Assembly (NCBI RefSeq): GCF_037975245.1
Contig: NC_092580.1
Coordinates: 10,748,501-10,812,500 of the forward strand
Direction of reading: 5' to 3'
DNA: 64,000 bases
Source: Apostichopus japonicus
Lineage: Eukaryota; Echinodermata; Holothuroidea; Aspidochirotida; Stichopodidae
Position numbers and translations under genes: made by a program. The notes beneath the pieces were generated by a model. The model worked only from the letters and a program-made list of their open reading frames with translations. It did no database searches and was not told the origin of the DNA. Shown piece after piece: positions 9,292 through 50,372 of the stretch (position 1 is its first letter; every line of letters begins with the position of its first letter).

Positions 9292-11649
9292 TCACTGTTC
9301 CTCTTTCTCTTCCCGGTGTCTTCGCGTTTTGCTTTTACTCCCTCTTTTTCTCCTTTTTCTCTCTTTCTTCTTTTTCTTTTCCCTTCCTTCCTCTCCTCCT
9401 CCTCTTTTCCCCCTCTTTTTTCCTTTTTTCTTCTCTTTTTTTTTCTCTTCTCTTTTTCTTACCCGGGGGGCGCGCGCCCCCAACGCCCCCCCCCTGGATA
9501 CGCACCTGATGAGCTTCTCCTCACCATCTACTACGGATGTGTTAATGCACCATGCGTGGTCATCAACTGACATTGTTGTTAGTAAGTGCCTGCCATCTCG
9601 ACTGTATTGTGTTAGCACAGTGTTCAGCTTTCCATCTTCATCCCATAAGATGTAGATGAACCCCCCAATGCCTATGCACACACTGACAGGTTTTAAGTCA
9701 GCTCCACTTAGATTTGGTTTGGTAAATTTATACACCACCTTACTCCCTGATGTCAACATGGTAACTGCATATGAGGTCCCACCCCCATAGTCACAGATCA
9801 GAAGATTACCGTCGTGGACAGTGATATCATCTAATTCCCTGATTTCATCAGGTAGTAATATGGTGTGACTGTAATTCAGCTGATAATCAAATACATACAC
9901 TTCTGTACTGTTAGTACAAACAATGATTTCATTCTTGGCGGGATTCGTGGTAACAGACCACACATGCCTACCCTCTGGCCACGTCTTAACCATATCACTG
10001 ATGTTCTTCTTTTGGTAAGAAGAGTCAGAAATGTTATAAATACCGATTTCATCCGGTTTGCAAGCTGTAATGACATTGAACCCCGGCAAATTACAACAGT
10101 AACGATATGCCCGAAGCCGAAATCTCTTATTTCTTATTAATACCATCTGATTTAATATTTCTCCTTTCATGTTAATGACAGTGATGTGTGATTTTTCTTT
10201 TGATACCATGCCAGTCATAACGATATTACCATTGCTACAACTTGTCATACCGCTGATATCGTAACCTTTAGCTTTGATTCCCGCAACGTCATCAACAGAC
10301 TCTGCGCTTTCTGTAATGACAACTTTATCATATATAACTTTTGTTACATCACTGATGACAAAATCAGATAAAGATTCTAACTCTGGATATTCTTGTTTCA
10401 TTTCTTCGATCATAGGTTCACTGGCTGCTCTTATGTCGGGTAAACACTGTGCGTCTGTCCAATCGTCATTACATGCAAGAATGGAAGAAGACGTTGCTAA
10501 TAAGTTTTCGAACCGTTTAATAAGTTGCTTACATTTATTTAGTATTTTTTCACATTCGTTTTTGTTTTGACTTGTAAGAAGATCTTTAGCTGTTGTCAAG
10601 GTCTTGAAATTACTATCTAACTCCCCGAGTTTTTGGAAGAATTCACCCTCAATTTCTTGACGATTTTCCTTAAATTCTTTCAATTCTTGGTCATATTTTA
10701 CATCGGTACTTTTCATATTTTGTTGATGTTTAATGATCAATCGGTTCATTTCCTCTTCATGCTTAACAGTTATTTCACGTTTTTCACATCCTCTTCTATT
10801 TTCTATGTCAGCAGCTCCTTTTTCACGTTCATTGTTACATTCGGCAAGTTTATCCTTTATTTTCTTTGCCTGTTCCTCGTGTTGAATTGTCAACAACTCT
10901 GTCTTTTTTGTAACATTTTCATTCAATTTTACTAACGCCATTTGAACCTTCTCGGGTAACGCGTATAGTTTAGTCTTGTGCTTGCTTAGTTCAGCAAGTT
11001 TCCGATTCAGTAATGTCCTTTCCTTCTGGGCTAGGTCAGTCACATCTATGAGATCATGACCTTTGTGCTTACCGTGAGTGCAGACTAAACAAACCGGTTC
11101 ATTTTGGCATGTACCACAGCACAATTTGGCTGGTTCTTTGATATGAAAATGGCACCTGGGATCTTCCGTCATTGCAGCTATTTCCTCCAAAGTCAGGTTC
11201 TTAGCTGCCATATTTTCCAATTTCAGAGTGCTTGGTTGGTGATCAGTAAACATTTTATTACTGATATGAACCTTGTAACATTCGTTGCATAAAAAATCTC
11301 TACATTTAAAGCAGTAGGCGGAACATACCACATCCTTTGAACAGCTCACACACTGCTTCAAATCTTTCTTTTCAAATGATTTACGCAATTCTATGAACTC
11401 GAGCATACTCTTCATATGAAAATCAGTCTTAAAGCCGTCCAATCCATCCTCTGGTATACAACATTGCTGTTTACAAAGTGGACATTCAATTGTCCCATCA
11501 TGGCTGGCTTGAATAACTTTTCTCAAGCAATCATTACAATATCGATGAAGACATGGTAACTGTTTCGGCTCATTAAATTGATCCAAACAAACAGAGCACA
11601 TGAAGAAGTTTTCTGTCAGGTCTTCTATGAAAGGGTTCCAGGTAGCCAT
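9292..11649 (-). CDS. TRIM/B-box E3 ligase-like protein with transposon-derived tail
   Basis: The 785-residue single-exon frame starts at ATG 11649. A C3HC4 RING (C18, C21, C33, H35, C38, C41, C56, C59) is followed by a B-box1-like Cys-rich segment (~100-138), a B-box2 (~166-198), a long coiled coil (~205-390) and a C-terminal beta-propeller-like region (~440-713). The order is that of the TRIM2/TRIM56-type family: RING for ubiquitin transfer, coiled coil for dimerisation, propeller for target binding. From residue 714 the frame enters the inserted transposon and gains 72 foreign residues, mostly Lys, Arg and Glu, before a stop. The native last 18 codons lie beyond the element at 7327-7386. 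Paralogue 47938-50133 (731 residues) is intact. The chimera loses only the propeller's final strand, so it may misfold, or it may retain RING/B-box function with a basic tail. Confidence 0.93.
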   Translation of the reverse strand: MATWNPFIEDLTENFFMCSVCLDQFNEPKQLPCLHRYCNDCLRKVIQASHDGTIECPLCKQQCCIPEDGLDGFKTDFHMKSMLEFIELRKSFEKKDLKQCVSCSKDVVCSAYCFKCRDFLCNECYKVHISNKMFTDHQPSTLKLENMAAKNLTLEEIAAMTEDPRCHFHIKEPAKLCCGTCQNEPVCLVCTHGKHKGHDLIDVTDLAQKERTLLNRKLAELSKHKTKLYALPEKVQMALVKLNENVTKKTELLTIQHEEQAKKIKDKLAECNNEREKGAADIENRRGCEKREITVKHEEEMNRLIIKHQQNMKSTDVKYDQELKEFKENRQEIEGEFFQKLGELDSNFKTLTTAKDLLTSQNKNECEKILNKCKQLIKRFENLLATSSSILACNDDWTDAQCLPDIRAASEPMIEEMKQEYPELESLSDFVISDVTKVIYDKVVITESAESVDDVAGIKAKGYDISGMTSCSNGNIVMTGMVSKEKSHITVINMKGEILNQMVLIRNKRFRLRAYRYCCNLPGFNVITACKPDEIGIYNISDSSYQKKNISDMVKTWPEGRHVWSVTTNPAKNEIIVCTNSTEVYVFDYQLNYSHTILLPDEIRELDDITVHDGNLLICDYGGGTSYAVTMLTSGSKVVYKFTKPNLSGADLKPVSVCIGIGGFIYILWDEDGKLNTVLTQYSRDGRHLLTTMSVDDHAWCINTSVVDGEEKLIRCVSRGGALGARAPRVRKREEKKKEKKKGKKRGKRGGGEEGREKKKKKERKRRKRGSKSKTRRHREEKEEQ

Positions 11650-11838
11650 GTTGATGAAAGTTGTTAACTTTCACTTGATAAAACTGTACTCAGTTATGTC
11701 ACAATCTGTGAAAGAGTTCAGGAAAAGAAAAGGGTTTAGCAAATTATTTTTTATCCCTGTATTTCATAAAATATGAATGGAAATACAAACATACATGCAT
11801 AACCCATTCAAAATGATCTGGACACAGAAGTGCTAAAA
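11650..11838. other. 5' flank of TRIM gene 1, shared with the paralogue
   Basis: It aligns with 50134-50340 (shared blocks around the start codon, CTGTACTCAGTTA and ACAATCTGTGAAAGAGT), so the promoter-proximal region was duplicated with the gene. No clear TATA box was identified. Confidence 0.7.
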
Positions 11839-22925: not shown

Positions 22926-22927
22926 TA

Positions 22928-23160
22928 CACTCTAAAAACACTTGGGTTAAAATTGACCCAAATTGGGTCACTTTTTGACCCAAATGAAAGTCAGGAGGGA
23001 ACCTAACACATTTGGGTCAAACTGACCCAGAAAATTAGGTCAGAATAAGTGACCCAATTTATGGGTTGTAAATTTGACCCAGAAATATTGGTAAATATTG
23101 ACCCCGGCAAGGGTTATGATGGAAATCAACCACATTTGGGTCAGCTTGACTCTTATAGGA
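22928..23160. repeat. Subterminal GGGTCA repeats of the CACTA-type element
   Basis: At least eight copies of TTTGGGTCA, TTGGGTCA or the complement TGACCCA in both orientations, including GACCCAAATTGGGTC as an inverted pair. The right end has ACCCAAATTGGGTT, TTTGGGTCA and TGACCCAG. In characterised CACTA elements such arrays bind the element-encoded accessory protein, and that role is inferred here. Confidence 0.85.
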
Positions 23161-24285
23161 AAAAATACATAAATACAAAAGGCTTCATTTGACAATGCAA
23201 TTTATTGATGTAACTCCTTCAAAGAAAGTGAACTGCTGAAAAACTGCTAAAAACTAATGTAAAATTGCAACAAAACTGAATGTTTCATTAATATGGTACC
23301 ATAGCACAAGATCTAAAGGAAGGAATTGTTTGAAGCGTTACCAATTAATCAAAAATGTTTTTTACCCCAGTGCAATTTTTACATAAACAATTTCAACATT
23401 TTATTAGACTTGTATGGATAAAATACAATTTGCTGAATGAATGAACGAACACTTTCTAGCTAGACATGTGTGTGTCTTCATAATGATATTTATCAGCTAG
23501 AGCATAGACTAGCTCGCATGGGGAAGTATTTGCCTTACTTACGATGTAATGACAAAAGAAGAAAATGACAACCAAAACATGGTTGCCAATTTTTAAAAGA
23601 TGGGGTGCTGGATGGTCAGTCTTGAAAATGTTCACTAAATTAGGCCTCGTAAAGAAGATTCCCCTCCCCCCCCCCCTTTTTAACACTTATCCATGGATTT
23701 CATTAAACGGCGGCAAGCCTTTAAGTAATGAGTCCATATATTATGTGTAATATTTATACTGCTGTTGTACATAACCCAGCACAGGTAAATATTGTATATG
23801 TAAATATGTGTAGAATGGATACACATATTTCTGTATTCCAAGAGCCGTTCAATTGAAAATAGTCCAAGCAATTTATTTAGAGCAGATAACTGGGACTGGG
23901 ACAATCCATATAATTTGCTTCTAAAATTTCATGACAGCAAAATATTTGTGAGCTGCAACTTTGGAACTGGAATTTATGAGATGAAAACAAATATGATCAT
24001 ACAGGCTGAAAACGTTTTGCCAATTCTTCTTAGAATACAAGCATATCTTTGCTTTGTATATGAGGCAAGTATGCCTTGGTCCCATAAACGTGATTCAACT
24101 AACAGTTGAGATTTCAACTAAAATCACACAACTTCAGATGATAATAAAGATTGCTCGGCATTGAACAAAATTGTGTCCAAATTCTTTCAACTGTCATGTA
24201 AAAAGGAGTTGTAATGGACAGTTGAATCGATCGCCAAGTTAATTCTAGTGTTGCACTGTGCGAATAGGTCTGAAAATTTTCAGCC

Positions 24286-27200
24286 CTACTTCCTTCCGAC
24301 TTTCAAATATGTCTTCAATGACACAACTGAAGATGACATTTTCCCAGGTAAGTTGTATACAACAGTCTGGAGGAACTGCCAGGTGTTGTATGATTGCCAT
24401 TGATAATTCATATCAAAAACATGAAAACATTTAAAACATAAATCAATGGCATTAAGCAGCGACTCCTGTGGAATGGCTTCTCTCTCTATGATTATGTACG
24501 TTTGTTCCGGGCTAACCCTGCTGCTTCCAATAGCTAGAACGAATGGTTGCTTTTGTTTCACCCCTTCAAGGTAGTGTGGAATATTGGTTCCAATCTGAAA
24601 TGAAAAAGAAAAGGTTATGGAAGCAAACTTCTTAGATTTATTCAAATGCTGCCTTCCATATAGAAAGGATCATATATTGCAGTACTCCCCAGAAGGCAGG
24701 TTGATAGAAGCAATCTTTGTTTTGATTAAGGATGTGCAGTATTTAGCATTTCACAACTTCAGTGATGAATAGTGCCACAATTTCATAGTGGGTTTTAGAG
24801 GTGCCAGGTAGGAATTGTCGGGTCTCTGTAAGTTATTTTGAGGCTCATCTAGGAACCCTTGACAATTGATTATGGATGAACACAGTGTTCAGAAGTTAAC
24901 AAGACACTCATACTATCACACCATACTGCCTGGAATACCACAATGTCCTATCCAATCGGTGTGAATTAGATTGTACACTCTTCTACTGCACATTCAACAT
25001 ATTCTGCATTCACATTTATATGTATTCATATATCATGTGTATACTGGAATGAAGAAATCATTGTTACAACTCTACCTGTAATAAATTTGGTTAAGGGTTT
25101 GTACAATGCAACCTGGTGCAGTGGTAGTGGGTTATGGTTCCACAATTTCTGGGGCTGGTGAGGTTCTTCAGGCATTTGATTGGCACAGCTGCAGAGCATT
25201 AGTGACCGATGCTTTGATAGTCCCCTTCCACCATTCCCCTTGGGAAAGTGGCTGAATGCATCGTTCATGTCTTTCAGATGGGAACATAAAATGGTGGTTC
25301 TAGGAGCAGGGTAGGATTGTATCTGATGAATGTCTTGTCTCACCAATCGATGTACACTGCTCGCGAAGAGAAGGCAAGCTCTTTGCCTGTTTCATCCATA
25401 ATTTTATCGTCTGTCAATTTTCCTAGATGAACCTGTAACCGACGATGATCTTATAAAAGGAATTTTTCTACTTCAAATTTAGCTTTCAGCTCACCTTTTG
25501 CAAATCTACAAATGAAGTGAGGGCATCTTCAATTGTAGCCCGTTTTCCTTTGCCCTTTATCTTCTGTGACCCAACAGGTAGAATGCATGGAATACACTGC
25601 AGTGCAATGTTGCATACTTCATCATCTGTAAAGAGGAAAAATAAGAACCTTGGGGAAAGATTCACAGACTTAACACTCATGAAGGCACTGATTATGCCCG
25701 TGTTATAAGGTAACACATTTGTGGGAATATATGATGATATATCAGTTAAAAAATGTCTTTCAGTGGAACAATATGCATTATATAGTGTGGATAGGATCTC
25801 TGACGGCTCTACAAATCCACCAATTTCTCAACAGCATCTCTGATTGTGATCCAAAGTTGGGTGGATGCCAGGCCAATGAATGTTCGTCGATGAAGCAATA
25901 CAATATTACCAGAATTCTGATGCGAGAATAGAAAACATTTGTAGCTTATAACAAATCCGATGTCATCTATGTTGACTGTGCAGGGTTGTGCCCATGCCAG
26001 ACCTGAGGCATTGTGTACTGAAATATGGCAATCAGGCATAATACTTGACACTATTCTGTTGCCTGACCACCTTAATCCCCTGACTGACTCCCTCCTCCAA
26101 ATACACACCATTTTCATTATTTCCCCTGACTGAGGTGAAGCTCAACTGGGGGCCAATTGAAACATCACTGGCAGTGCCACATGAAAACAGTTCACATGCA
26201 TTTTACCTGGGTTAATAAGTTATTGCAACTTAGTTACCTGATAGTTGACTGCTGTCTTGAACAATCCCCAGGTGTCGAGACCAATCATTTTGCTTGTCAG
26301 CATAATGCAGTAGGTTCCTAGCGACTGCAGGTGTCCATAACAGGAACAATTTGTCCCCACACTTTGGCTTGATGACTTCAAAGTCCAGATTAATCTGAAA
26401 AAGGATGAAATATGTGACAAGTCTGCACAGAAAGCATTTTTTTGTACCCAGACTTGGACTGTGAACAGAGCTGCAAAATAGTCTTGGAGGACCATCCAAC
26501 CAAACTGATGTAGATGTCCCATATCCTGGCACTGAGGTGAATTCTTTTTGCTGGCTACTGCTACAGAGCATAAGACCATATCATCTCAGATGTTTTGTTT
26601 AACTAGAGATACAGGAGTAACGTGATGCTCTTGAAAATGCAACTGAGAGTACATATCCCACAAAGCATACCAAATATTTGTTTGCATCGATTTGAACAAA
26701 ATCTTCCATTTTGCTAAAGCAAACTATGAACAAAAAAATGAAATTATACAGCAGGTATTATGCCTTTTTTTATTTTTGCGTTGTGCTTATAATTCTGCCC
26801 TTCCTGAGAACAAAAACAGTAAACCATTGAGTTAACTGATCCCTTTTTTGTTTTTACACTTCATCGTACCATTAGCTCACCGACAAAGTTGGATGTATTC
26901 CCAGAGGGGGTGTCTTTCGAGTATTGACAGAGGCCATTTATTCTTGCCCTATCCTTGATCTGAAGGTACGAGCAGATTTCCTCGCTGATTTCTTGTCTCA
27001 CACATGAGAAGACCTACAAATGAAATTTGCCTGCTTATTACCCTAAGCTTGCCACATCACAGAATAAAACAACTATCTAAATAAAACCCACCAGTCCTGA
27101 AGTGTCCAGTAGTCTAGGATATTTCGCAAAGATGGCGACGCCCTCTGGATTTTCTCTAATCCACATGAGCCTGGACTTCGCTGTTTTTTGGTGGTATTCT

Positions 27201-30200
27201 CTGACTTTACCCAGAGGTTCTTTATTGTGTTTCATCCACTGTACCATCGCCTCAATGGCAGCAGGTTCGATGTCATCTGGAAAAGTTAACAATAATTGCC
27301 CTATGAAGAATGGATATACCAAGGAATCATGACAAAGATATTGTTCTAAATGTGAATTCTGAAAATCTGCACATTACAAAGGAGATGAAAAGGTATGCCA
27401 GGAATGAACATCCTATGCATGATATGTAATTTCTTCTTACTCTTGTTAACATTTCAAATGTTAACTTAAAAAAAAACACATAAAAATACCTTCATCACTC
27501 TCCAGACTACCGACTGATGAAGCTGTGGAGTCAGAGTTTGTTTTGTTGGCCTTCCGAATGCTCACATGATTCTTCTTTGCTGTTCTCTTCCTCACATTCC
27601 TGAGTCTTTCTTCCAAATAACCTGTAGCTGCATGCTGTCCAATGCTAGAAGTGTACCAAGCTTCCTGTGAAAACAACCAATGAAGGTAAAATGTTTTGCC
27701 TAAGGACACATGGTCAGAACTCAAACTCCCGATCCTAAAACTACTCAGCAGTTATGAATAATGAGCACCTAGCTATATGCTCATAACAGAAAGTCAATGT
27801 AAATGATGATTTCGCCCCGATTCATTTTGGTTTGAGGCAGACTGTATCGTGACCGGACACCTCCCCCGGACAGTGGGGAATGCCCGGGGGGGGAATTGTC
27901 CGGGTGGGGAATTGATGCGGGGTGAGATGTCCTAGAACCGAATGTAATCCCATCCATACGACCTGACACATCTATAATCAATGTTCTCTAGCTTCCAGCA
28001 AACAAATCATGAAACCAAATTGAACATTCAACTGAGAACTCACCAATCACATCAGAGCTGAAATTATTTAGTGAAAATAAAATGACAGTATTTTTTAATG
28101 AGCCAAGTTGAGGGGGCACATTCCTCCTCATCTCAAATGCATATGATCACATGGGCCGGGAGAGAACAATCTCCATGTTTCTCAGAGTAAATCAATTCAT
28201 TTCTTGATGTTCCCAGTTTATGCCAAATATATATTTGTCAAAGCTATTTCATTGACCCACTGACTTAAAACGAAGGGTTTTCTGTATATGGTATATAGGC
28301 TACTTGGATAACATGTTGACAATTAAAAAGAATGGTAGTATCCAACTGGCAACAGCCATCCTTCTACATTTTAAAAACGTAATCCAAAAAAAGAAGTGAT
28401 CTAACATGACAAAAATTGATACTAACATAACCATCTCCATCTTCTCCCTTCAGTTTGGGAAACTCATTTACAATGGATCTTGCAAGAGCCTCTTTTACAT
28501 GGGATGTGGGCCTGAAATATAAACAATTTTGTGTAAAATAATGAGTTGCTAAATAAAAGTAAACATTGTGAAAACTAAAAATGTTTGTTCACCACTGGTC
28601 ACCACTAATTCTCAAAGACATAGAATTCAAATCACCTTTTATTGAGTCTACATGTACATACCTATCTCCAAACTGTTCTATCAGGTGTGATACAAACATC
28701 CTGACAGCTTGAATCCGATATTTGTGACTAAGTAGTCCTTCATCCATTTCAGACTCAATGATATCTCCGCCGTTGTTATCATTTAGTATTTTACGGATAT
28801 CCTTTGAAAAGGAGAAATCGAGAACAAAGCTGGTGATTGGAGCTTAGTTGTGCTTTGCACTGTACCTATTAAAGGGGAACAACAGCCCCCTTACAGAAGA
28901 CAGATCTGTCTGGTTAATTGGGTGTGTAATGATTGATGTGTGCACCATTTCAACAGTTCTGGATGAATTGTTTCGATTACTGTAAAAAGATGGCAGACTT
29001 ATTAATGACAATCACATACCAATGCAGATTTATACAAGGGAGAAGTACAGTACTTACAAAATGTAACTTCGGTCTCTTTGGGGTATTGCTATGTTCTGGT
29101 GTTGAGGTGGTTATCAAAGATTTAGGTGATTGTAATGAAAAAGTTGGAGACTGCAATGTAGATTGATATGCCTGGCTATCCTGAGTCTGCAAAAAGAAAA
29201 AAAGAAAAACTCTAACAAATGAACCATTTAACGCTGGTCATTTTTTGCACTTCAAACTTCCCAGCGCTGGCTATTTTATAACTCATATTATAAAAGTGTC
29301 ATTTGTCTTTAAATTTGCTGCAAAAATTCTTGATATAAATTGACTTCTTGTACCATTTTATACTGTATCTTATCCCCCTTGATCTTGGAAGCAGGTCTCC
29401 CTCCTCCAGTCTTATATCCCCATCCCCAGGTTAGTCATGAATCCTTTATTTGCAAGCTCTTCAACAACACCAACTACAACTTTTCCACTTGCAAACAATT
29501 TCTCTGGGTCAGGATTGGTGGTATCTGGGTGCAAGGGCCGCACTCGGATTTTGGTGGTTGGTTTTCCTCCTTGCCAGTATACACTTCCCAGTGTAATTAA
29601 TTTAATGCATACGCTTCCATACCCCCTTTTATTCACTTTGTGGGCATGTACTGTACTGGATGAACCCCAATGGTCCCTGCTCTCGTTGGGTGATGTTTTC
29701 ATGTGAAGTGTAGGGTGACTAAATCCGGAAAGGGTCTAACATTGTGGAATGTGTCGTTCAGAACAGCAATATTATAATAAGATGCCAATATTTGATTATG
29801 GTACGGAATCGGGTTCTAGACATTATGGATATTAAAACTCTGTAAAGTTGTTTTGTAAAAGTAGAGCTAAAAATGCACAGATTTCTTCAGGTGTGACTAC
29901 AATCCACTGGCGATCTGAGGGTTCATCTGACCTGCATATAGATTTGTTTCAGTAACAATATGATCAATAAGACCTACTGCACCATCAAGTAGAGTCCAAA
30001 CACTTCAACAGGGGTGACATTAGGTCTTCGAGTTTCAGTGGATGGAGGTATGTTTTGAAAATTGTGGACCTCATTCCAGCCCTAGCCATAGTCCTTATAG
30101 GTATGTTGGCGACCCTCACTTCCCTTCCTAAATCCATATAAACCTGACAACCAACACCTTTCTCACTCTTACTTGGTCCCATACCTGCGCCATTAACAGG

Positions 30201-33200
30201 TGGCCCAATTTCACTTCCGAAGCAATACTGTACCACATATGTTAAGATTGATAGGCCCAGGCATAACGATTGACTAACATCATTGTCATCTTTGGATTCT
30301 GAGGAATCTTTAGGGACCAGTAAATGTGAGCAGCTTTCAAGAATTGCTGTTCGGTACTGTGACGAAAAAAGATCATGACCGTGTAACTAAAAAATACATA
30401 CCCATTCAAAATTTGTATCTTGTGACAACACAGAAAGCTGGATCATTTGGAGGTCCACTCTGAATCATTTGGAGAGGGTGGTAATCAAGCAAGTCATCAA
30501 TACGACAAATTTCTGTTTTTCGTGGCTCCTGTGCTTCAACTTTGTATGCATGTAGGTGCCTGGAAAATCCAGTTGTCAGCCATTCTTCATAAATCAATCT
30601 AACTCCAGACTCTACTGCAATAATGTTAACAAGTTTACCGAAGACTGGATCTAGTTCAACATTCTTTCCAACAACCACCATCTGATGTTTCTTGTATGTG
30701 TGTCCAAATACTTTGCACCAATTTGCAAGGAATACCTCGTCGTATAAACCTAGTCTTAGCCTTATGTGGACAACATCTGAGTCTGTAATTGATGCCACAA
30801 GAACTGATGACCCTGGACCGATTTCAACTTCATCCCCAACGAGTGACAATTGTGACAAGAGATTATAGCACAGCAACATTTGGTTCCTGTAAGCTAATGT
30901 CTTTGCAATATTTTGAAAATTACACACTATGTGTGAAAGTCTCCTTGAAAAATTGTGTTTAGCCTCAAAGCGCATAGCCCAAAATCTTGTTAGAGGACCA
31001 AGTTTCTGGATGGCCATTGGGTAGTGTATCATATGATGATGTTTTGGTTTCAATTGCCTTGCATTACCAAACAGTTCAAGAAAATGTTGGTGATGATCTT
31101 GAATGAGGTGTTTGAGGTACACTGTGTCTCCCCTACTTATAACTGGTGAAAATATTATGTCCATGCATTTAAGCAACAAAATTAACAGTTCCCAGTGCTC
31201 ATCATCCTCTGGCACTAAATCACCCATCATAAGTGGAAAGTGTCGTATCAAACACCACATTTGGGCAGCATTTTGCCCTGGAGCACCATCTGGATTAGTC
31301 ATACTAGAAGCAGAGAAGATACATGGCTTGTTCTGGTTATCACCAGAACCATAGTTGAAACTAACAAGCCTACTATTCAACAGATTAATGTTGAACAATC
31401 TTTTGTCAATAAGAGCTTTTACCACCAATTTGAGCTCCAGTGGGCACACACCTTCTAGAAGATCATGCATGATATCCGGAGCAAAATTTTGAGTGACATG
31501 ATAGTGGTGAATTTTGTTTAGGGGACTGTCGGACCTCACACCTGTATTTGGAAGGTCTTGAGCATTCACATCCATTTGATAGTTGTCTTTAGTGCGGAGT
31601 AACCCAACATTCTCAGATGTAGATAACTGGGCTTCAGCTCGGTGCATCTTACAAAATCTGCACGGGTAATTGGCAGTGAATCCTTGGGCAAAGCCAAAGA
31701 GAGAGTGTAATCCAAGGTTATCACCTGTAACTTGGGCTAGTCCAACACGTACAGTCCCTTGAAAGGTGGGTGCTTCAATTTGTATACCATCATGTATTAA
31801 TGAATTAAGATCTTCAACTAGTGGGTCAAATATTGGCTCATACCCATACAGTTTAGCATCACCAGCATTGAACAACATTACTAAATGACAGTTATTTAGC
31901 GATGATCTAAACTTCGGATGTATGTTGGTTATGGTGCAATAAACAGCACCAAGCTTGTGAGTACCAGCCTTTGGACTAAGTGGGTTTGCAACCTCAAAGT
32001 CATCAATGTAGAAAAGCAACTGAATGTTCCTTTTGTGCCTACAGAATATATTTTGTTGGCTGTATTCCCCATCATGGAAATCTCTCATTAACCCATCAAG
32101 ACTGGGCTCATGCATTTCGATGTTCTCTAAGAAACCTTTACTTTCTAAAATAAGTTTCATCAGTGGTTTAATGGGCACATACTGAAAAGAAACATTTTTC
32201 AACACTTGAGAGACATTTCCTGTCATTCTGTTCCTCCTTTGATAGAATGCTACTGCAATAGGGATCTCCTTAGGTGCCAGGAATACACCACTTTGTGTGA
32301 AATACTTCTTTCTCATGTAAACCCCTATGAATCTGTCAAAGGTGTTTTCACATTTTTCAAAATCCTCCATCAGGGAACAAAATGAAAGATCATTAGGTTG
32401 AATCATGTTTTGCTGAGCAAACTGGGAGGTTTTGTGCTTCAAGTAGCCAACGACATCATCTAATAAATCAGATGTATGACCAACTACACCGTCTATTGTT
32501 GACTGTACGACACTGCTTGAAGCCAGCAATTTTGCGAGAATGATGGCAATCCTTTGTTCTATCTCTGCTTTGTCAAAATCATCCCAATTTTGAACATTTG
32601 GAATAGGTTGCTCATCATGGTCCCCATGCAATGGCTCATTATCATCTGATGAATTATGATCGCTAGCATTCAACTCATCAGCATCATCAAGCAAGGGAAC
32701 TTCATTTGCTCCATACATTTCATGTTTTTTTTCCACATGGGATTTAAATGTAGATACATGGTTCTTGAATGTTCTCATGCAGCCATCCTGCATACATGTG
32801 ATGGGTCCTGTGAAATACCTCCCATTTACTAGTGAATGAATGTTCTTAAAATGCCATATTAGGGCCTTGCTGTGACCTAATATCAAATGGCCACATCTGA
32901 CACAAACAAATCCCATCTTGCCCAGTGTTTATAATCAAGTTCAGCAGAATTTAAGAAGTTGAACATACCACCACTGTTGTTTCATTCTGTTCGGAATTTA
33001 GCTCCTTGATCTTCTTAGCAGCCTTCATGCGTGGTCCAAGGGGAGGTATCAGCTCTTTTAAAGTTTCCATTTCTAATAGGACAAAGATTTCTTTGTCAAT
33101 GAAATTCTCTGAAAACCAAGAAAAAGGGGCATTGAGACAATGAACATTTGATTGATACAGACTACAGAGTTAGCTTAGCTATATACTTGTATGCACTATG

Positions 33201-36162
33201 TGGAACCAACCAATGGCTTAAGAAGTTCATTTGGCCATCTAGGCAAAAATCCTGAAGGGATATTCTCCCACTGATTGAATAATTTGAAATGTATCCTTTG
33301 TCTCTTTGCTAACATCAAATATCACCATATTTCTCAAACCTGGTTTTGATGATAAACTATATATAATATTTGTTCAAGATTGGAGATGAACGACTCAATT
33401 TCTCACTTCACAGCAGGGTTGTTGATTTTTCCTATTAAAAAAATGATTAAAACCAGATTGTGTTTATTCAAATCAGATTAATTTTTTTGAATTTCTTAAA
33501 TCCAAATATCAATTTATCATTTTAATGCCAAATATTCCACAAACACTCATACCCTCTTATATTACCTACAAACAGTGTTAAATTTCAGTTAAGCACAGTG
33601 TTTAATTTTGAATTCAGAATCATTAAGGACCTACTTATGCCTATAAATCAGTCAGTCCCACGAAGGGATAAAGGAATATAGAATCTAGGTGTTGTGAAGA
33701 AGCTACTGTTTGCACATAGAAAAATACTGTTTTAATGATGGACTGGTGCAGTCCAAGGTGAGTGTACACAGAAACGCTTTTCTCGTACAATCCTATAATA
33801 ATTCAGTAGTAGGTGTGCAAACTATAAACGACAGTATAGTTTGAATGAATTGCACAGTTTTAACAAATGATGTGGTTGAACTTTTTTTTAAATGCCAAAA
33901 AATTAAACAAGACAGTGAAAAAACTAGGCCTAGAGTAGAGTGATTAATATTCAACCTCTTAAGAAATATTATTATTATTACACAAAATTTATATAGCGCC
34001 TTATTCAATTAAAAAATTGCTCTAAAGCGCTTTACAGCAAAAGATAAAAAATTTGTTCAAAGTATAAAAGTTAAAAGGTTATAAAAGATTAGATTGTATA
34101 GAAAAATATATGATAGAAATGTAAAAAATAAATAGAAGAATTATGACTAAAATACAAAATAACACCTGAATTAAGTACGTGCAGCAAATATTCAGGTAAC
34201 ATAATATTACCAATAAAAATGTATTAATATGCCATTTTGGTTTAGATAAAGTATGTACATTTTGCGTACCAGTAGTCAACCCCACAAATTGTTTTGTATT
34301 TTCCAGAGGAAGAAGCATAATTTAAATGTGATTCTATAGAAGGATATAATTTTTGAACTATTTGTAGGTAGGCCTAATCTATAATAAAAATTTTTTAGTT
34401 ATCATTGTTTTTTGTATAGATGAGATTTAAACTTGGCAGCCATTTTGTGTTGTTCTATTATGGTAAACTTGGTCCAATTTATTATTTTTTATCATTTTTT
34501 CCTATAATTTTTTAAACGATGATGATTCATGACATACAGTATACAATATTGCTATAGAAAAGATTTACACATTGTGTGTGTGGGTGAAAACAGTTTATCA
34601 CAAACAATAGCTTTCAAGTTGGGAAATTTTGGTAGCCCACCGGACTACTGCTACTCAGTGTTCTGACAGTTCTGGTAGTCCAACGTATATTTGGTCGTCT
34701 AGGGCTACACTCCGCTACAGCCTACTGAACTACCACATACTTCGAACCTTGGCAATTATGCCAGGGCCTATATAGATTGAGGTTTGCCTGGTGCAGGCAT
34801 CATAATCCGAATATTTTCAATGAATGTTGAAGCAATTTAGCTGAAAAGTGCACAGTATACAGGCACCCAGTGCTACTTACTTACAACAACGCCCCCCTCC
34901 CCCTGCTTAACTGTACATACTTAATTTGTAGAATTAATATTCAAGTACTTATCGTAGGGTATATCAAGATGCCCGAATAATGCGGGGGCCGTATAATGCA
35001 TATAAACCTAGGTTACCTAACAATACGTTCCAATATTACCGTAGCAACATGCTCAAAAAGTGCTATGAACAAATAAGATCTGTTAGGCCTACTTATTTTC
35101 AACCATAATATATGCAAAACGGGCTGTTTTTTTTCACATCTTGACCAAAAAGACCTAACATTCTAGGCTAGGCCTAAATGTTAATTTTGTATGAAAATTC
35201 AAAATTTTCATTGCCAAGAAATTTTTAAATGAAATTGTTGTAAATTTATTCCAAGTTCTGCCTCTTGTTTGGTCTTCTTTGTCTTTTTTTTGGTAGGCCT
35301 AGGCCTAGTCTGATAAGCTATGTTAGTAAACTTACTGCTTAATCAGATGTAACATTAGGCCTAGGCTACAGTAGGTCTAGGCCTAGGCTAGGCAAAGCTA
35401 TTTTTGTTATTTAGGCCTAGGCCTACAGTAACCCTAAAATTCTGGTAAAAACGCTGATGATTTTTTTTGGTCACTGGGGCTTGTTCCATAACTAGGCCTA
35501 ACGTTAGGCCTATAACACTATGCGCAGTAGTGCCTAGCCTAGGCCTAACATTAGGCTACTGTAGGCCTACGACATTACGCATATTCCAAATGTTTCACAC
35601 TTCAGTAGCTGCCCTGTGTGTACAAAAAAAACCACTCCATTAGCATGTCTAAATCTAGCCGTCATGCTCATGATCGCTGACCCTCATGATCGCAAATAGG
35701 CCTCGCCTAGGGGCCTAGGCCTCATCATATTTACTTACCAAACTTGGCACAACATTGCTTAGGCCTAGGCCCTAGGCTACTTACGCATTGTCAACAATGC
35801 TTACTTATGCAGTTGTGCATCGTCATATTTATTTTAAATATACAGTTCAATTAGGATTGTGGATTTATCTATCAGATACTAGAGGTTCCGTACATGTATA
35901 CATCATCTCAATCTCAACTGCAATAGTGTACTCTTTACAGGCCTAGCCTATGTTATGGCTTAGCGTTAGGCTATAGGCTAGTACGACTACGAATTAGTCA
36001 CCGACTTAGCCATACGTTAAGTCTTCGTATGCTACTTCAGCATTTCTTGAAATTTAATTACATATTAAAAAAGATATTTGCACATGATACCATACCTTGA
36101 AATGAATTAGCCCATTCCATCAAGCCCCATTCTTCTAATTTATCTTTCACGAACGAATCCAT
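24286..36162 (-). CDS. SAM-domain protein of the CACTA-type element, ten exons
   Basis: Exons (minus strand, coding order): 36096-36162, 32969-33108, 29058-29186, 28662-28801, 28427-28511, 27490-27664, 27092-27276, 26238-26394, 25495-25625, 24286-24594. All introns are GT-AG, every phase agrees, and the 1518 bases encode 505 residues plus TAG. Residues 1-65 form a sterile alpha motif (EEWGLMEWANSFQENFIDKE, then LKELIPPLGPR). Later blocks are YLEERLRNVRKR (~205-215), WMKHNKEPL (~259-267), YPRLLDTSGLINLDFEV across an exon join (~298-314), and a C-terminal domain with PFVLAIGSS and WQFLQTVVYNLPG. I recall a large family with this layout (SAM, LEERLRNVR, WLKHN, PRLxDTxGxIxxDF) in fish and marine invertebrates, function unknown. 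Its place inside the element, with the transposase gene in intron 2, suggests an accessory or TnpA-like role. Confidence 0.88.
26881..27013 (-). CDS. Possible alternative exon of the SAM gene
   Basis: A 133-base open segment between a good acceptor (TTTGTAG) and a good donor (G then GTGAGCT) encodes VFSCVRQEISEEICSYLQIK and a further 24 residues, ending SNFV. It follows exon 7 in phase 0 but ends in phase 1, while the next exon needs phase 0. Skipping it joins exon 7 to exon 8 (26238-26394) as YPRLLDTSGL-INLDFEV, which fits the family pattern. Inclusion would shift the frame, so it may be a regulated or decoy exon, or chance. Confidence 0.4.
29412..29702 (-). CDS. Unassigned open frame within SAM-gene intron 2
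   Basis: A 96-codon frame includes IRVRPLHPDTTNPDPEKLFA and GKVVVGVVEELANKGFMTNL, a protein-like composition. It lies between the transposase stop (30406) and SAM exon 3 (29186) on the same strand. No domain is recognised and no clean splice pair was established. Confidence 0.25.
   Translation of the reverse strand: MKTSPNESRDHWGSSSTVHAHKVNKRGYGSVCIKLITLGSVYWQGGKPTTKIRVRPLHPDTTNPDPEKLFASGKVVVGVVEELANKGFMTNLGMGI
30406..32916 (-). CDS. TNP2-like CACTA transposase with N-terminal zinc fingers
   Basis: An uninterrupted 836-residue frame. Two C2H2-like fingers open it (C5/C8 with H22/H27, and C41-x4-C46 with H60/H65), followed by an acidic linker. The core keeps motifs in the order seen in plant TNP2: YIDDFEVANPLSP (~303-315, like TNP2 DGFNPF), VTGDNLGLHSLFGF (~396-409) leading to CRFC (419-422), FAPDIMHDLLEGV (~478-490, like the D-x-MH motif), and RFEAKHNFSRR (~649-659) as the likely acidic position. 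D305 or D306, D399, D481 and E651 are candidate catalytic residues. The whole gene lies in intron 2 of the SAM gene on the same strand, its ATG 52 bases past that gene's exon-2 donor. Reading through the donor meets a stop within six codons, so it needs its own start or alternative splicing. Expected role: nuclear binding and cutting of CACTC ends. Confidence 0.85.
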   Translation of the reverse strand: MGFVCVRCGHLILGHSKALIWHFKNIHSLVNGRYFTGPITCMQDGCMRTFKNHVSTFKSHVEKKHEMYGANEVPLLDDADELNASDHNSSDDNEPLHGDHDEQPIPNVQNWDDFDKAEIEQRIAIILAKLLASSSVVQSTIDGVVGHTSDLLDDVVGYLKHKTSQFAQQNMIQPNDLSFCSLMEDFEKCENTFDRFIGVYMRKKYFTQSGVFLAPKEIPIAVAFYQRRNRMTGNVSQVLKNVSFQYVPIKPLMKLILESKGFLENIEMHEPSLDGLMRDFHDGEYSQQNIFCRHKRNIQLLFYIDDFEVANPLSPKAGTHKLGAVYCTITNIHPKFRSSLNNCHLVMLFNAGDAKLYGYEPIFDPLVEDLNSLIHDGIQIEAPTFQGTVRVGLAQVTGDNLGLHSLFGFAQGFTANYPCRFCKMHRAEAQLSTSENVGLLRTKDNYQMDVNAQDLPNTGVRSDSPLNKIHHYHVTQNFAPDIMHDLLEGVCPLELKLVVKALIDKRLFNINLLNSRLVSFNYGSGDNQNKPCIFSASSMTNPDGAPGQNAAQMWCLIRHFPLMMGDLVPEDDEHWELLILLLKCMDIIFSPVISRGDTVYLKHLIQDHHQHFLELFGNARQLKPKHHHMIHYPMAIQKLGPLTRFWAMRFEAKHNFSRRLSHIVCNFQNIAKTLAYRNQMLLCYNLLSQLSLVGDEVEIGPGSSVLVASITDSDVVHIRLRLGLYDEVFLANWCKVFGHTYKKHQMVVVGKNVELDPVFGKLVNIIAVESGVRLIYEEWLTTGFSRHLHAYKVEAQEPRKTEICRIDDLLDYHPLQMIQSGPPNDPAFCVVTRYKF
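33965..34040. repeat. Short interspersed repeat fragment
   Basis: Contains TTTATATAGCGCCTTATTC and CTAAAGCGCTTTACAGC, partly inverted motifs (AGCGC and GCGCT) that I recall as recurrent in marine invertebrate genomes. Class unknown. Confidence 0.35.
35070..36000. repeat. TAGGCCTA-rich field
   Basis: Many AGGCCTAGGCC-type palindromic words (for example GGCCTAGGCCTAG near 35296 and 35380). It lies inside intron 1 of the SAM gene. Confidence 0.7.
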
Positions 36163-36199
36163 TTGTGCTTCTGATCATGTTCGCTCTGTCAGCAAACTT

Positions 36200-36335
36200 G
36201 TTCTACAGCCAATTTGTCTATGGCGCGCGCGCAGGGCCAATATGATCGGACGGTCAATGTGTGTTCGTTGATTGGCTGATCTGACATGGTGCACTCATAT
36301 TCCTATAATGTTGACCAATCATAGTCCAATATTAT
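36200..36335 (-). promoter_or_regulatory. CCAAT-box cluster upstream of the SAM gene
   Basis: Five CCAAT/ATTGG pentamers in ~120 bp (36209, 36237, 36271 inverted, 36315, 36326), with a GCGCGCGC block between the first two. They lie 40-170 bp upstream of the start codon at 36162 and inside the right transposon end. This is the likely element promoter driving both genes. No TATA box was identified. Confidence 0.5.
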
Positions 36336-36470
36336 TTTGACTCGTTGATGAAAGTCAGTTTCGGACTTAGCATTAGGTCAGCTTAGTGTATGGTACAACC
36401 CAAATTGGGTTATAAGACCATCGACCCTGCGTTTGGGTCATGAATATGACCCAGGTGTTTTAAGAGTGTA

Positions 36471-47937: not shown

Positions 47938-50133
47938 CTATACAGGTACTAGTCCGTATATATACATCTTCCCCGACGTTAAGGTAGCTATCATGAGCTT
48001 CTCCTCACCATCTACTATGGATGTGGTTATGCACCGTGCGTCGTCATCAACTGACATTGTTGTTAGTAAGTGCCTGCCATCTCGACTGTACTGTGTTAGC
48101 ACAGTGTTTAGCTCTACGTCATCATCCCATAACATGTAGATGAACCCTCCCATGCCTATGCACACACTGTAAGGTCTTAAGTCAGCTCCACTGATATTTG
48201 GTTTGGTTAATTTATACACCACCTTACTCCCTGATGCCACCATGGTAACCTCATATGAGGTCCTACCCTCATAGTCACAGATTAGAAGATTACCACCGTG
48301 GACAGTGATATGATCTGATCCCTTGATTTCATCAGGTAGTACTATGGTGTGACTGTAATTCAGCTGATAATCAAATACATACACTTCTATGCTGTCAGTA
48401 CCAAAAATGATTTGATTCTTGGCGGGATTCGTGGTAACAGATAACACATACCTACCCTCTGGCCACATCTTAACCATATCACTCATGTTCTTCTTTTGGT
48501 AAGATGAGTCAGAAATATTAGAAATACCGATTTCATCCGGTGTGCAAACTGTAATCACATTGAACCCTGACAAATTACAACAGTAACGAAATGCCTGAAG
48601 CCAAAATGTCTTATTTCTATTTAAAACATTCTGATTTAATATTTCTCCTTTCATGTTAATGACAGTGATGTGTGATTTTTCTTCTGATACACTACCAGTC
48701 ATAACGATATTACCATTGCTACTACTTGTCATACCGCTGATATCGTAACCCTTATCTTTGATTCCCGGAACATCAACAACAGACTCTGCGCTTTCTGTAA
48801 TTACAACTTTATCAGGTATAACTTTTGTTATATCACTGATGACAAAATCAGATAAAGATTCTAACTCTGGATATTCTTGTTTCATTTCTTCGATCAAAGT
48901 TTCACTGGCTGCTCTTATGTCGGGGACACACTGTGCGTCTGTCCAATCGTCATTACATGCAAGAATGGAAGAAGACGTTGCTAATAAGTTTTCGAACCGT
49001 TTAATAAGTTGCTTACAATTATTCAGTATTTCTTCACATTCGTTTTTGTTTTGACTTGCAAGAAGATCTTTAGCTGTTGTCAAGGTCTTGAAATTACTAT
49101 CTAACTCCCCAAGTTTTTTAAAGAATTCACCCTCAATTTCTTGACGATTTTCCTTAAATTCTTCCAATTCCCGGTCATATTTTACATCGGTACTTTTCAT
49201 ATTTTCTTGATGTTTCATGATCAATCGGTTCATTTCCTCTTCATGTTTAACAGTTATTTCACGTTTTTCACATCCTCTTCTATTTTCTATGTCAGCAGCT
49301 CCTTTTTCACGTTCATCGTTACATTCGGCAAGTTTATCCTTTATTTTCTTTGCCTGTTCCTGGTGTTGACTTGTCAACAACTTTGTCTTGATTGTAACAT
49401 TTTCATTCAATTTCACTAGCGCCATTTGAACCTTCTCGGGTAACGCGAATAGTTTAGTCTTCTGCTTGCTTAGTTCAGCGAGGTTCTTATTCAGTAATGT
49501 CCTTTCTTTCTGGGCTAGATCATTCACATCTATGAGATCGTGACCTTTGTGCTTACCGTGAGTGCAAACTAAACAAACTGGTTCATTTTGGCATGTACCA
49601 CAGCACAATTTGGCTGGTTCTTTGATATGAAAATGGCACCTGGGATCTTCCGTCATTGCAGCTATTTCCTCCATGGTTAGATTCTTAGCTGCCATATTTT
49701 CCAATTTCAGAGTGCTTGGTTGGTGATCAGTAAACATTTTACTACTGATATGAACCTTGTAACATTCGTTGCATAAAAAATCTCTACACTTAAAACAGTA
49801 AGCGGAACATACCACATCCTTTAAACAGCTCACACACTGCTTCAAATCTTTCTTTTCAAATGATTTATGCAATTCTATGAACTCGAGCATACTCTTCATA
49901 TGAAAATCAGTCTTAAAGCCGTCCAATCCATCCTCTGGTATACAACATCGCTGTTTACAAAGTGGACATTCAATTGTCCCATCATAGCTGGCTTGAATAA
50001 CTTTTCTCAAGCAATTGTTACAGTATCGATGAAGACATGGTAACAGTTTTGGCTCATTAAATTGATCCAAACAAACAGGGCAATTGAAGAAGTTTTCTGT
50101 CAGGCCCTCCATGAAAGGGCTCCAGGTAGCCAT
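47938..50133 (-). CDS. TRIM/B-box E3 ligase-like protein, intact paralogue
   Basis: A 731-residue single-exon frame starting at ATG 50133. A C3HC4 RING (C18, C21, C33, H35, C38, C41, C56, C59) opens it, then a B-box1-like Cys segment (~100-138), B-box2 (C166 to H198), a Lys/Glu-rich coiled coil (~205-390) and a C-terminal repeat region with beta-propeller-like strands ending GKMYIYGLVPV. The protein is likely a cytoplasmic ubiquitin ligase. Echinoderm TRIM expansions are often linked to innate immunity, but nothing here proves that. Sequence is closely similar to TRIM gene 1 along the whole length, and the flanks match too. Minor differences cluster in the C-terminal half (for example SEEKSHITVIN versus SKEKSHITVIN), compatible with diversifying recognition. 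No introns and no premature stop. Confidence 0.95.
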   Translation of the reverse strand: MATWSPFMEGLTENFFNCPVCLDQFNEPKLLPCLHRYCNNCLRKVIQASYDGTIECPLCKQRCCIPEDGLDGFKTDFHMKSMLEFIELHKSFEKKDLKQCVSCLKDVVCSAYCFKCRDFLCNECYKVHISSKMFTDHQPSTLKLENMAAKNLTMEEIAAMTEDPRCHFHIKEPAKLCCGTCQNEPVCLVCTHGKHKGHDLIDVNDLAQKERTLLNKNLAELSKQKTKLFALPEKVQMALVKLNENVTIKTKLLTSQHQEQAKKIKDKLAECNDEREKGAADIENRRGCEKREITVKHEEEMNRLIMKHQENMKSTDVKYDRELEEFKENRQEIEGEFFKKLGELDSNFKTLTTAKDLLASQNKNECEEILNNCKQLIKRFENLLATSSSILACNDDWTDAQCVPDIRAASETLIEEMKQEYPELESLSDFVISDITKVIPDKVVITESAESVVDVPGIKDKGYDISGMTSSSNGNIVMTGSVSEEKSHITVINMKGEILNQNVLNRNKTFWLQAFRYCCNLSGFNVITVCTPDEIGISNISDSSYQKKNMSDMVKMWPEGRYVLSVTTNPAKNQIIFGTDSIEVYVFDYQLNYSHTIVLPDEIKGSDHITVHGGNLLICDYEGRTSYEVTMVASGSKVVYKLTKPNISGADLRPYSVCIGMGGFIYMLWDDDVELNTVLTQYSRDGRHLLTTMSVDDDARCITTSIVDGEEKLMIATLTSGKMYIYGLVPV

Positions 50134-50372
50134 GTTGATGAAGGTTGTTAACTCTCACTTGAAAAAACTGTACTCAGTTAGACAGTTACATCACAATCTG
50201 TGAAAGAGTACAGGAAAAGAAAGAAAGGGCTTAACAAATTATTATTTATCCCTGTGTGCCATAAAATATGAGTGGAAATACGAACATACATGCAAAACCG
50301 TTCAAAATGGTCTGAACACAGAAGTGCTTAAACATTTCAGGCCAGTGTTTAACCGGTCCTTCATCATTCATG
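50134..50372. other. 5' flank of TRIM gene 2, duplicated
   Basis: Matches 11650-11875, ending with the first ~30 bases of the LINE remnant (TTTCAGGCCAGTGTTTAACC), after which similarity stops. This marks the right edge of the duplicated block. Confidence 0.85.

Follow-up and report, generated by a model that had tools for sequence, protein, structure and literature searches.

A recently mobile CACTA/EnSpm-like transposon of Apostichopus japonicus in which the transposase gene lies in an intron of a SAM-domain gene, a candidate for an accessory factor

The window analysed here (64,000 nucleotides of Apostichopus japonicus) contains a bounded, recently mobile element of 13,541 bp that carries a transposase gene and a SAM-domain gene. 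Both genes are on the minus strand, which places the element's 5' end at position 36468. We consider it likely that the element is a probably autonomous CACTA/EnSpm-like cut-and-paste transposon that uses two proteins, the SAM protein being a nuclear accessory factor that binds the element ends. The gene pair recurs in several diverged transposon families of the same genome (F1, the family of the window element, to F7), and this recurrent pairing suggests that the SAM protein helps these elements to move. The features of the element are as follows.

22928..36468, minus strand: complete CACTA/EnSpm-like element, 13,541 bp (ends, target-site duplication, copies, empty site)
22926..22927: target-site duplication TA, left copy (flank comparison, empty site)
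36469..36470: target-site duplication TA, right copy (flank comparison, empty site)
22928..22947, plus strand: 3' terminal inverted repeat CACTCTAAAAACACTTGGGT (sequence and genome-wide end search)
36449..36468, minus strand: 5' terminal inverted repeat CACTCTTAAAACACCTGGGT (sequence and genome-wide end search)
22946..23150: 3' subterminal TGGGTCA/TGACCCA cluster, 8 in the outer 300 bp
36400..36453: 5' subterminal TGGGTCA repeats, 2 in the outer 300 bp
30406..32916, minus strand: transposase, 836 aa, single exon in intron 2 of the SAM gene (ATG at 32916, last base of the stop codon at 30406)
36096..36162, minus strand: SAM exon 1, with the start codon (36162) and the beginning of the SAM domain
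32969..33108, minus strand: SAM exon 2, remainder of the SAM domain
29058..29186, minus strand: SAM exon 3, Ser/Thr/Pro-rich linker with an NLS-like basic stretch PKRPK at its end (by eye)
28662..28801, minus strand: SAM exon 4 (gene model)
28427..28511, minus strand: SAM exon 5 (gene model)
27490..27664, minus strand: SAM exon 6 (gene model), missing together with exon 7 from copies C8 and C9
27092..27276, minus strand: SAM exon 7 (gene model), missing together with exon 6 from copies C8 and C9
26238..26394, minus strand: SAM exon 8 (gene model)
25495..25625, minus strand: SAM exon 9 (gene model)
24286..24594, minus strand: SAM exon 10, with the stop codon; best-matched exon between families

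A first-pass annotation had proposed a single 13.5-kb unit with two same-strand genes and CACTC ends that match at 18 of 20 positions. The ends were recovered at 22928 and 36468, where the left end CACTCTAAAAACACTTGGGT and the right end CACTCTTAAAACACCTGGGT, the latter read inward, are indeed identical at 18/20 positions, and the unit is bounded by these ends, by the target-site duplication and by near-identical copies. Genome-wide, the end pattern was matched 191 times with at most two mismatches, against 10 times for the reversed control. The 47 exact matches comprised 21 convergent pairs and 5 singles; the last exon of the SAM gene was found inside 20 of the 21 pairs and the transposase inside four, and the near-identical transposase copies were all (4/4) enclosed by a pair of exact ends. 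This search for ends around gene-bearing copies had been proposed along with the annotation, and its adverse outcome, ends recurring without the genes while the genes recur without the ends, did not occur. The transposase was absent from 16 exact end pairs spanning 5.5-9.5 kb, and the three of these that were read were all internal deletions. A pair of ends on C19 spans 209 bp.

Copy C21 is 99.4% identical across the whole unit, and C8 and C9 (99.6-99.8% identity) both lack the 1.4 kb at 28373-26972, an in-frame deletion that removes SAM exons 6 and 7. The termini of the three copies fall within around 10 bases of the same end points. In all nine elements that were read on both sides (seven of F1, one of F2 and one of F3) the 2-bp flanks were identical, being TA in eight cases and TG in one. 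A paralogous empty site (C20:12482402-12482847) shows 93% identity over the joined flanks and reads CCG-TA-CCG; the filled site in the window, CCGTATA[element]TACCG, has one TA beyond what a simple 2-bp duplication would give. Considering the near-identical copies with the same end points, the matching flanks and the empty paralogous site, the element has been mobile recently.

The subterminal GGGTCA repeats noted before are clustered at both ends in the form TGGGTCA/TGACCCA, with 10 occurrences in the outermost 600 bp, where the interior rate predicts 0.19. Each of F1, F2 and F3 has its own short repeat concentrated at the element ends, which is CGGTTCA in F2 (17 versus 0 expected) and TCCTGGT in F3 (13 versus 0.12 expected). 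In the three families measured, the counts per 300 bp were higher at the 3' than at the 5' end (8 versus 2, 13 versus 4 and 9 versus 4).

The 836-residue transposase was confirmed at 30406..32916 within intron 2, and contains two C2H2-like fingers (by eye) followed by a Transposase_21-like core. The relationship to TNP2 that had been claimed for it was upheld by the alignment of this core, over 547 columns (E 9.7e-11), with another protein encoded in this genome, which matches Transposase_21 at 50.1 bits; the direct match to Pfam Transposase_21 is weak, at 14.6 bits, and stays below the cut-off of 28.6 that the reference protein exceeds. The transposases of F2-F5 align with the same reference (E 2.5e-9 to 4.6e-12), and those of F2-F4 are 33-51% identical. 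The transposases of F4-F7 gave no match to Pfam Transposase_21, and the NCBIfam search gave none for either the transposase or the SAM protein. Acidic residues are aligned across six transposases (F1 motifs YIDDFE, GDNLG and RFEAKH), among which candidate residues of a DDE catalytic triad can be proposed. The only matches to solved structures were to the 131-kDa subunit of transcription factor tau (four sequences, E 0.0018-0.0058) and concerned an acidic stretch, residues 55-120, which we took to be an effect of composition. Judged by these alignments, the 836-residue protein is a relative of Transposase_21.

The SAM gene consists of ten exons that encode 505 residues, with GT-AG borders at all introns and consistent phases, as had been described at the outset. 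A nine-exon model of 462 residues was replaced when the phase-0 exon of 129 nt at 29186-29058 was found; a script recovered the equivalent of this linker exon in F4, and inspection by eye did so for F2 and F3. The proposed N-terminal SAM domain was recovered with Pfam SAM_1 (cut-off 23), to which exons 1-2 of F1 match at 26.0 bits and F3 at 30.0 bits. Below the cut-off were F2 (18.9 bits) and the whole 462-residue F1 model (21.3 bits), and exon 2 of F4 alone gave no match to SAM_1. Among solved structures, the SAM part resembled the SAM domains of BICC1 and ANKS3, weakly (best E 0.0082). In a number of copies the SAM exons contain stops.

The claimed nesting of the transposase in an intron of the SAM gene was found in F1-F4. 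F2-F4 keep the order of the F1 SAM exons and, where tested, the intron phases, including those on both sides of the transposase, and in F3 all nine exons of the nine-exon model were present in order, the transposase separating the second from the third. A simple filter, which in places also returns sites in other phases, gave candidate splice sites that match the F1 phase on both sides of 7/7 introns tested in F4 and of 6/8 in F3; in F2 it did so for four of the first five. SAM exon 1 was not found in F4. In F5, convincing SAM exons occur only downstream of the transposase, and in F6 the body of the SAM gene lies upstream of it, so that nesting is not universal. Judged by the conserved exons and phases, the SAM gene is arranged around the transposase. 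For at least 38 of the 52 transposase copies compared, a homologue of the SAM last exon lies no more than 12 kb away on the same strand (34 downstream, 4 upstream), against a chance expectation of around 0.1 for a single list of 150 places, and no opposite-strand SAM last exon was seen near a transposase among the places compared. These places yielded no SAM last exon for 14 of the 52, which include a copy on C10 with other SAM exons and the F7 copy with a possible relative. The N-terminal stretch of F7 matched nothing in Pfam up to E 1 and one PDB row at E 0.94.

In plant En/Spm, an intron of tnpA contains the transposase frames, and the subterminal repeats are bound by TnpA. By analogy, the SAM protein would act like TnpA, although here it is the second intron that bears the transposase, exons 1-2 encode the SAM domain, and the likeness drawn is one of layout. 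The gene layout and phases fit a single transcript that is alternatively spliced into the SAM protein and the transposase, and we infer both this splicing and the accessory function. Transcription would start just within the 36468 end, and the spliced message would yield the 505-residue protein, which may enter the nucleus via its basic linker, self-associate via the SAM domain and, by binding the subterminal repeats specific to its family, bring the two element ends together. The transposase would be made from a message that retains intron 2, or from an alternative start, would recognize the outer CACTCTAAAAAC-like bases common to three families and would cut both ends, with insertion giving a 2-bp duplication, mostly of TA. 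Alternatively, the transposase itself could bind the repeats, through its finger-like N terminus. Since copies C8 and C9, lacking exons 6-7, occupy separate sites with their own matching flanks, an intact SAM gene is seemingly not needed in cis; the deletion preserves the reading frame, and help in trans from complete copies would explain their spread.

The spread of C8 and C9 despite a shortened SAM gene is also what one would expect if the SAM protein were a regulator, acting on the element promoter or against silencing, as TnpA does in one of its roles, and transposition needed the transposase only. SAM exon 1 lies around 306 bp inside the 5' end, where the repeats could be promoter elements, and TnpA itself acts on the element promoter (PMC1636069). 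Nevertheless, in the three families measured it is the 3' end, remote from the promoter, that has the higher repeat density, and binding to the ends therefore fits better than promoter control alone; we regard a purely regulatory role as possible but doubtful. A passenger gene that contributes nothing to transposition and persists because riding on the element is to its advantage would account for the number of copies with stops in SAM exons, but the pairing has been maintained despite changes in gene order (nested in F1-F4, body upstream in F6), which makes this improbable.

It is equally improbable that exons 1-2 belong to the transposase message, giving a SAM-transposase protein, with exons 3-10 as a separate gene. 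The transposase ATG follows closely behind the exon 2 donor in F1 (52 bases) and F4 (13 bases) and is immediately preceded by AG in both, but this AG is missing in F2, F3 and F5, such that a fusion by splicing just before the ATG is not supported. Moreover, read through without splicing, exon 2 is out of frame with the transposase in each of F1-F4 (by hand), and the exon 2 donor agrees in phase with the next SAM acceptors in the same four families. Insertion into, or capture of, a host SAM gene, with accidental nesting, could be entertained considering that SAM is a common host domain and that capture of host genes by CACTA elements has been reported in plants. The recurrence across families largely refutes it, as the SAM gene lies within the element ends in F1, F2 and F3, intron phases match in diverged families and at least 38 of the 52 transposases are paired with it, and we consider this reading very improbable.

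CACTA/EnSpm (CMC) elements are recognized by terminal inverted repeats starting with CACTA or CACTG and by a target-site duplication of 2-3 bp. The ends described here start with CACTC in F1-F3 and with CACTG in related 3.6-kb elements, and are thus not classical CACTA; shared with the group are the Transposase_21 core (by alignment), the 2-bp duplication and the clustered subterminal repeats (F1-F3). Animal SAMD3-like SAM proteins of around 500 residues, with an N-terminal SAM domain, occur in many copies in fish and invertebrate genomes, and share size and domain position with the 505-residue protein. Among the literature matches listed (titles and starts of abstracts), none linked SAM or SAMD3 to CACTA/EnSpm or transposons. 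Two-protein animal CACTA elements are already known from SmTRC1 of Schistosoma mansoni, a CACTA-related transposon whose transposase is reported to be similar to sequences of Strongylocentrotus, Ciona, Danio and Aedes (DeMarco et al. 2006, PMC1636069). Both are animal elements with a Transposase_21 protein, terminal inverted repeats and 2-bp flanking direct repeats, the latter in 7/14 SmTRC1 copies, and SmTRC1 produces spliced messages for short proteins with exons that skip the transposase frame, a layout similar to that found here (PMC1636069). In contrast to the CACTC ends, those of SmTRC1 start with CCC, and its authors detected no relatives of the short proteins and, in the consulted part of their report, mention no SAM domain, whereas the second protein here bears one and is conserved across families (PMC1636069). 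Plant En/Spm, as summarized in the same source, requires two proteins, which alternative splicing derives from a single transcription unit and of which the shorter binds DNA (PMC1636069).

These data provide a defined candidate for a TnpA-like partner in animal CACTA elements, with near-identical copies at hand. The gene-in-intron layout resembles that of plant En/Spm even though the partner has a SAM domain, which raises the question whether the layout itself is selected. The elements are also a possible source of multi-copy SAM-protein genes that annotations may count as host genes. Tentatively, and with less than even confidence, we propose that a conserved modular accessory protein serves as second component throughout one large branch of the animal CACTA elements, with a C-terminal body that is kept and an exchangeable N-terminal self-association domain (SAM in F1-F3 and, by exon 2, in F4; another domain in F7), encoded by a gene that lies round, before or after the transposase gene. 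If true, many repetitive animal genes described as 'uncharacterised SAM' would belong to transposons, and those present in a single copy could be domesticated ones.

The element carries two genes, is mobile and has recent copies; a conserved gene with a SAM domain is arranged around its TNP2-related transposase. Its features are:

22928-36468: CACTA/EnSpm-like element, both genes on the minus strand
32916, minus strand: ATG of the transposase, nested in intron 2 of the SAM gene
29186-29058, minus strand: exon 3 of the SAM gene (linker exon)
28373-26972, minus strand: stretch with SAM exons 6 and 7
9292-11670 and 47938-50154, minus strand: TRIM-like genes, related to each other, one on each side of the element

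A 20-bp inverted repeat that starts with CACTC and matches at 18 of 20 positions bounds the unit on both sides, as the first-pass annotation had described. Both forms of the repeat were searched, with at most two mismatches, in the whole genome (671,581,487 bases, 35 contigs; the window corresponds to C20:10748501-10812500), which yielded 191 places versus 10 with the reversed pattern. The 47 exact ends formed 21 convergent pairs and 5 singles. The transposase was inside 4 of these pairs and the last exon of the SAM gene (exon 10) inside 20, the sole exception being a pair of 209 bp. All four near-identical transposase copies were enclosed by an exact end pair.

The copy on C21 is 99.4% identical to the whole unit. 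Those on C8 and C9 (L011-L014) show 99.6-99.8% identity and each lacks 28373-26972, so that SAM exons 6 and 7 (175 and 185 nt, in frame) are gone; the transposase frame of the C9 copy is broken. Considering that these copies occupy separate sites, the shortened SAM form has spread, which suggests that help in trans or a shortened protein can provide the SAM function, or that this function is dispensable. The three shorter copies read all have internal deletions and no transposase. Judged from the match limits, one (80-95% identical by segment) retained exons 1 and 8-10, another exons 1 and 5-10, and the third every SAM exon except exon 2. Identical two-base flanks were present in all nine elements read (TA in eight, TG in one). 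A paralogous element-free site is 93% identical to the joined flanks of the window (positions 12-455); its junction reads CCG-TA-CCG, and the window has one TA beyond a simple 2-bp duplication. In the TRIM-like genes the RING finger scored above the Pfam cut-off and the B-box below it. Given these genes on both sides and the recurrence of flank pieces (12 rows of matches at C20:12.2-12.6 Mb), the element is located in duplicated sequence.

The open frame of the transposase comprises 840 residues, 836 from the ATG. The list of homologues in the same genome came to 52 copies (56 rows minus four that were second pieces of copies already counted), to be taken as at least 52 because 54 of the 406 candidates were scored. 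Five families share 30-51% transposase identity:

F1: the window
F2: C10, C12, C16, C17, C20 and C21
F3: C16 and C7
F4: C7 and C3
F5: C1 and C16

The proposed TNP2 relationship is weak by direct comparison (Pfam Transposase_21 versus F1, 14.6 bits), and the F4-F7 transposases themselves did not match this model. It holds indirectly, as the F1-F5 cores each align (E 2.5e-9 to 4.6e-12) with an 880-residue C11 protein that exceeds the Transposase_21 cut-off. Two N-terminal C2H2-like fingers, recognized by eye and without a Pfam call, are kept in F1-F5. A second Transposase_21 group is present in the genome, at C11:3835198-3835650 and further places, and includes the 880-residue protein.

Translated searches of F1 against F2 and F3 showed that the order of the conserved blocks is constant and that the transposase follows the second block and precedes the remaining ones, in agreement with the proposed nesting after the second SAM exon. 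The boundaries read from the sequence gave nine exons at first, and inclusion of the linker exon (129 nt, phase 0) restored the ten exons and 505 residues of the earlier assembly. This exon encodes a Ser/Thr/Pro-rich linker with a basic stretch at its end; in F4 a script located an equivalent between the transposase and the next exon, and in F2 and F3 visual inspection did so. Using a simple splice-site filter, which in places also returned sites in other phases, F1-phase sites were found at either side of all 7 introns tested in F4 and of 6 of the 8 tested in F3. In F2 this held for 4 of the initial 5 introns, and in F5 for only one. The N-terminal SAM domain claimed initially exceeds the Pfam cut-off in F1 (exons 1-2), as it does in F3, and is below it in F2. 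Exon 2 of F4 alone did not match Pfam SAM and a search for its exon 1 was negative; for F5 there was no convincing match to exon 1 or exon 2. Past the linker, the SAM gene matched no Pfam or NCBIfam family.

A first list comprised 150 last-exon places. For 22 of the 52 transposases, one of these places follows on the same strand, no more than 20 kb downstream (chance expectation about 0.1), and opposite-strand neighbours were absent, as checked in full for this list only. Further places came from F4 and F5 queries (150 listed for each), and 40 that seemed near a transposase were chosen by eye from the three lists. Given this choice the count is a lower bound: at least 38 of 52 transposases have a same-strand last-exon partner, 34 downstream (4.4-11.4 kb) and 4 upstream. 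No such partner was found for 14 of 52 among the places compared, one of them the C10 copy of F2, in which SAM exons are present. Another is F7 (C2), where part of a gene downstream of the transposase matches exon 7 (E 2.3e-4 versus a best of 0.072 among 20 shuffles). Its matches to exons 4 and 5 are in order and at chance level, exons 6 and 10 were not found within the 9.9 kb read, and the N-terminal exon, ubiquitin-like in appearance by eye, had no Pfam match. This stretch (L039, 4676-5281) is a possible SAM-gene relative, in which an unrecognised N-terminal domain seems to replace the SAM domain. In F6 (L038, C5:10751800-10761700) the body of the SAM gene (pieces of exons 4, 8 and 10) is upstream of the transposase, the gap between last-exon and transposase matches being 54 bases, or 8 with another query; SAM exons 1-2 were not seen.

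Subterminal repeats were counted in the outer 600 bp per element, with the expectation derived from the interior. The reported GGGTCA repeats are borne out in F1 (TGGGTCA, 10 versus 0.19 expected), while F2 has CGGTTCA (17 versus 0; internally deleted C20 copy) and F3 TCCTGGT (13 versus 0.12). Per 300 bp, the 3' and 5' ends carry 8 versus 2 repeats in F1, 13 versus 4 in F2 and 9 versus 4 in F3. The three families have nearly the same outermost 12 bases, and each has a repeat of its own, which we read as two putative recognition layers, probably one per protein. A further family, of 3.6-kb elements with CACTG termini, carries the same TGGGTCA repeats as F1. The copies read (L033, C7:2991824-2995606; L034, C9:33868481-33872229) are 97% identical; these elements hold pieces of SAM exons 1, 6 and 10, gave no transposase match, and have many further end pairs of this type among the matches listed.

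On the proposed mechanism, transcription would start from the 36468 side, splicing would give the SAM protein, and the transposase would come from a message in which intron 2 is retained or from an alternative start. The SAM protein may then bind the subterminal repeats and mediate synapsis via its SAM domain, with the transposase performing the cutting step.

According to PMC1636069, direct repeats of 2 bp flank 7 of 14 copies of SmTRC1, a Schistosoma element related to CACTA that encodes short proteins from spliced messages; a second protein was therefore already known from animal CACTA elements. The same paper reports that sea urchin, Ciona, zebrafish and Aedes have similar transposases, and that its authors did not detect relatives of the short proteins. 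SmTRC1 resembles the present element in its CACTA relationship, its 2-bp repeats and its second protein(s), but differs in that its short proteins are described there without relatives, whereas here the SAM partner is conserved across families. A literature search by title and start of abstract, with Repbase and most subscription papers outside its range, found no cross-family SAM-domain partner.
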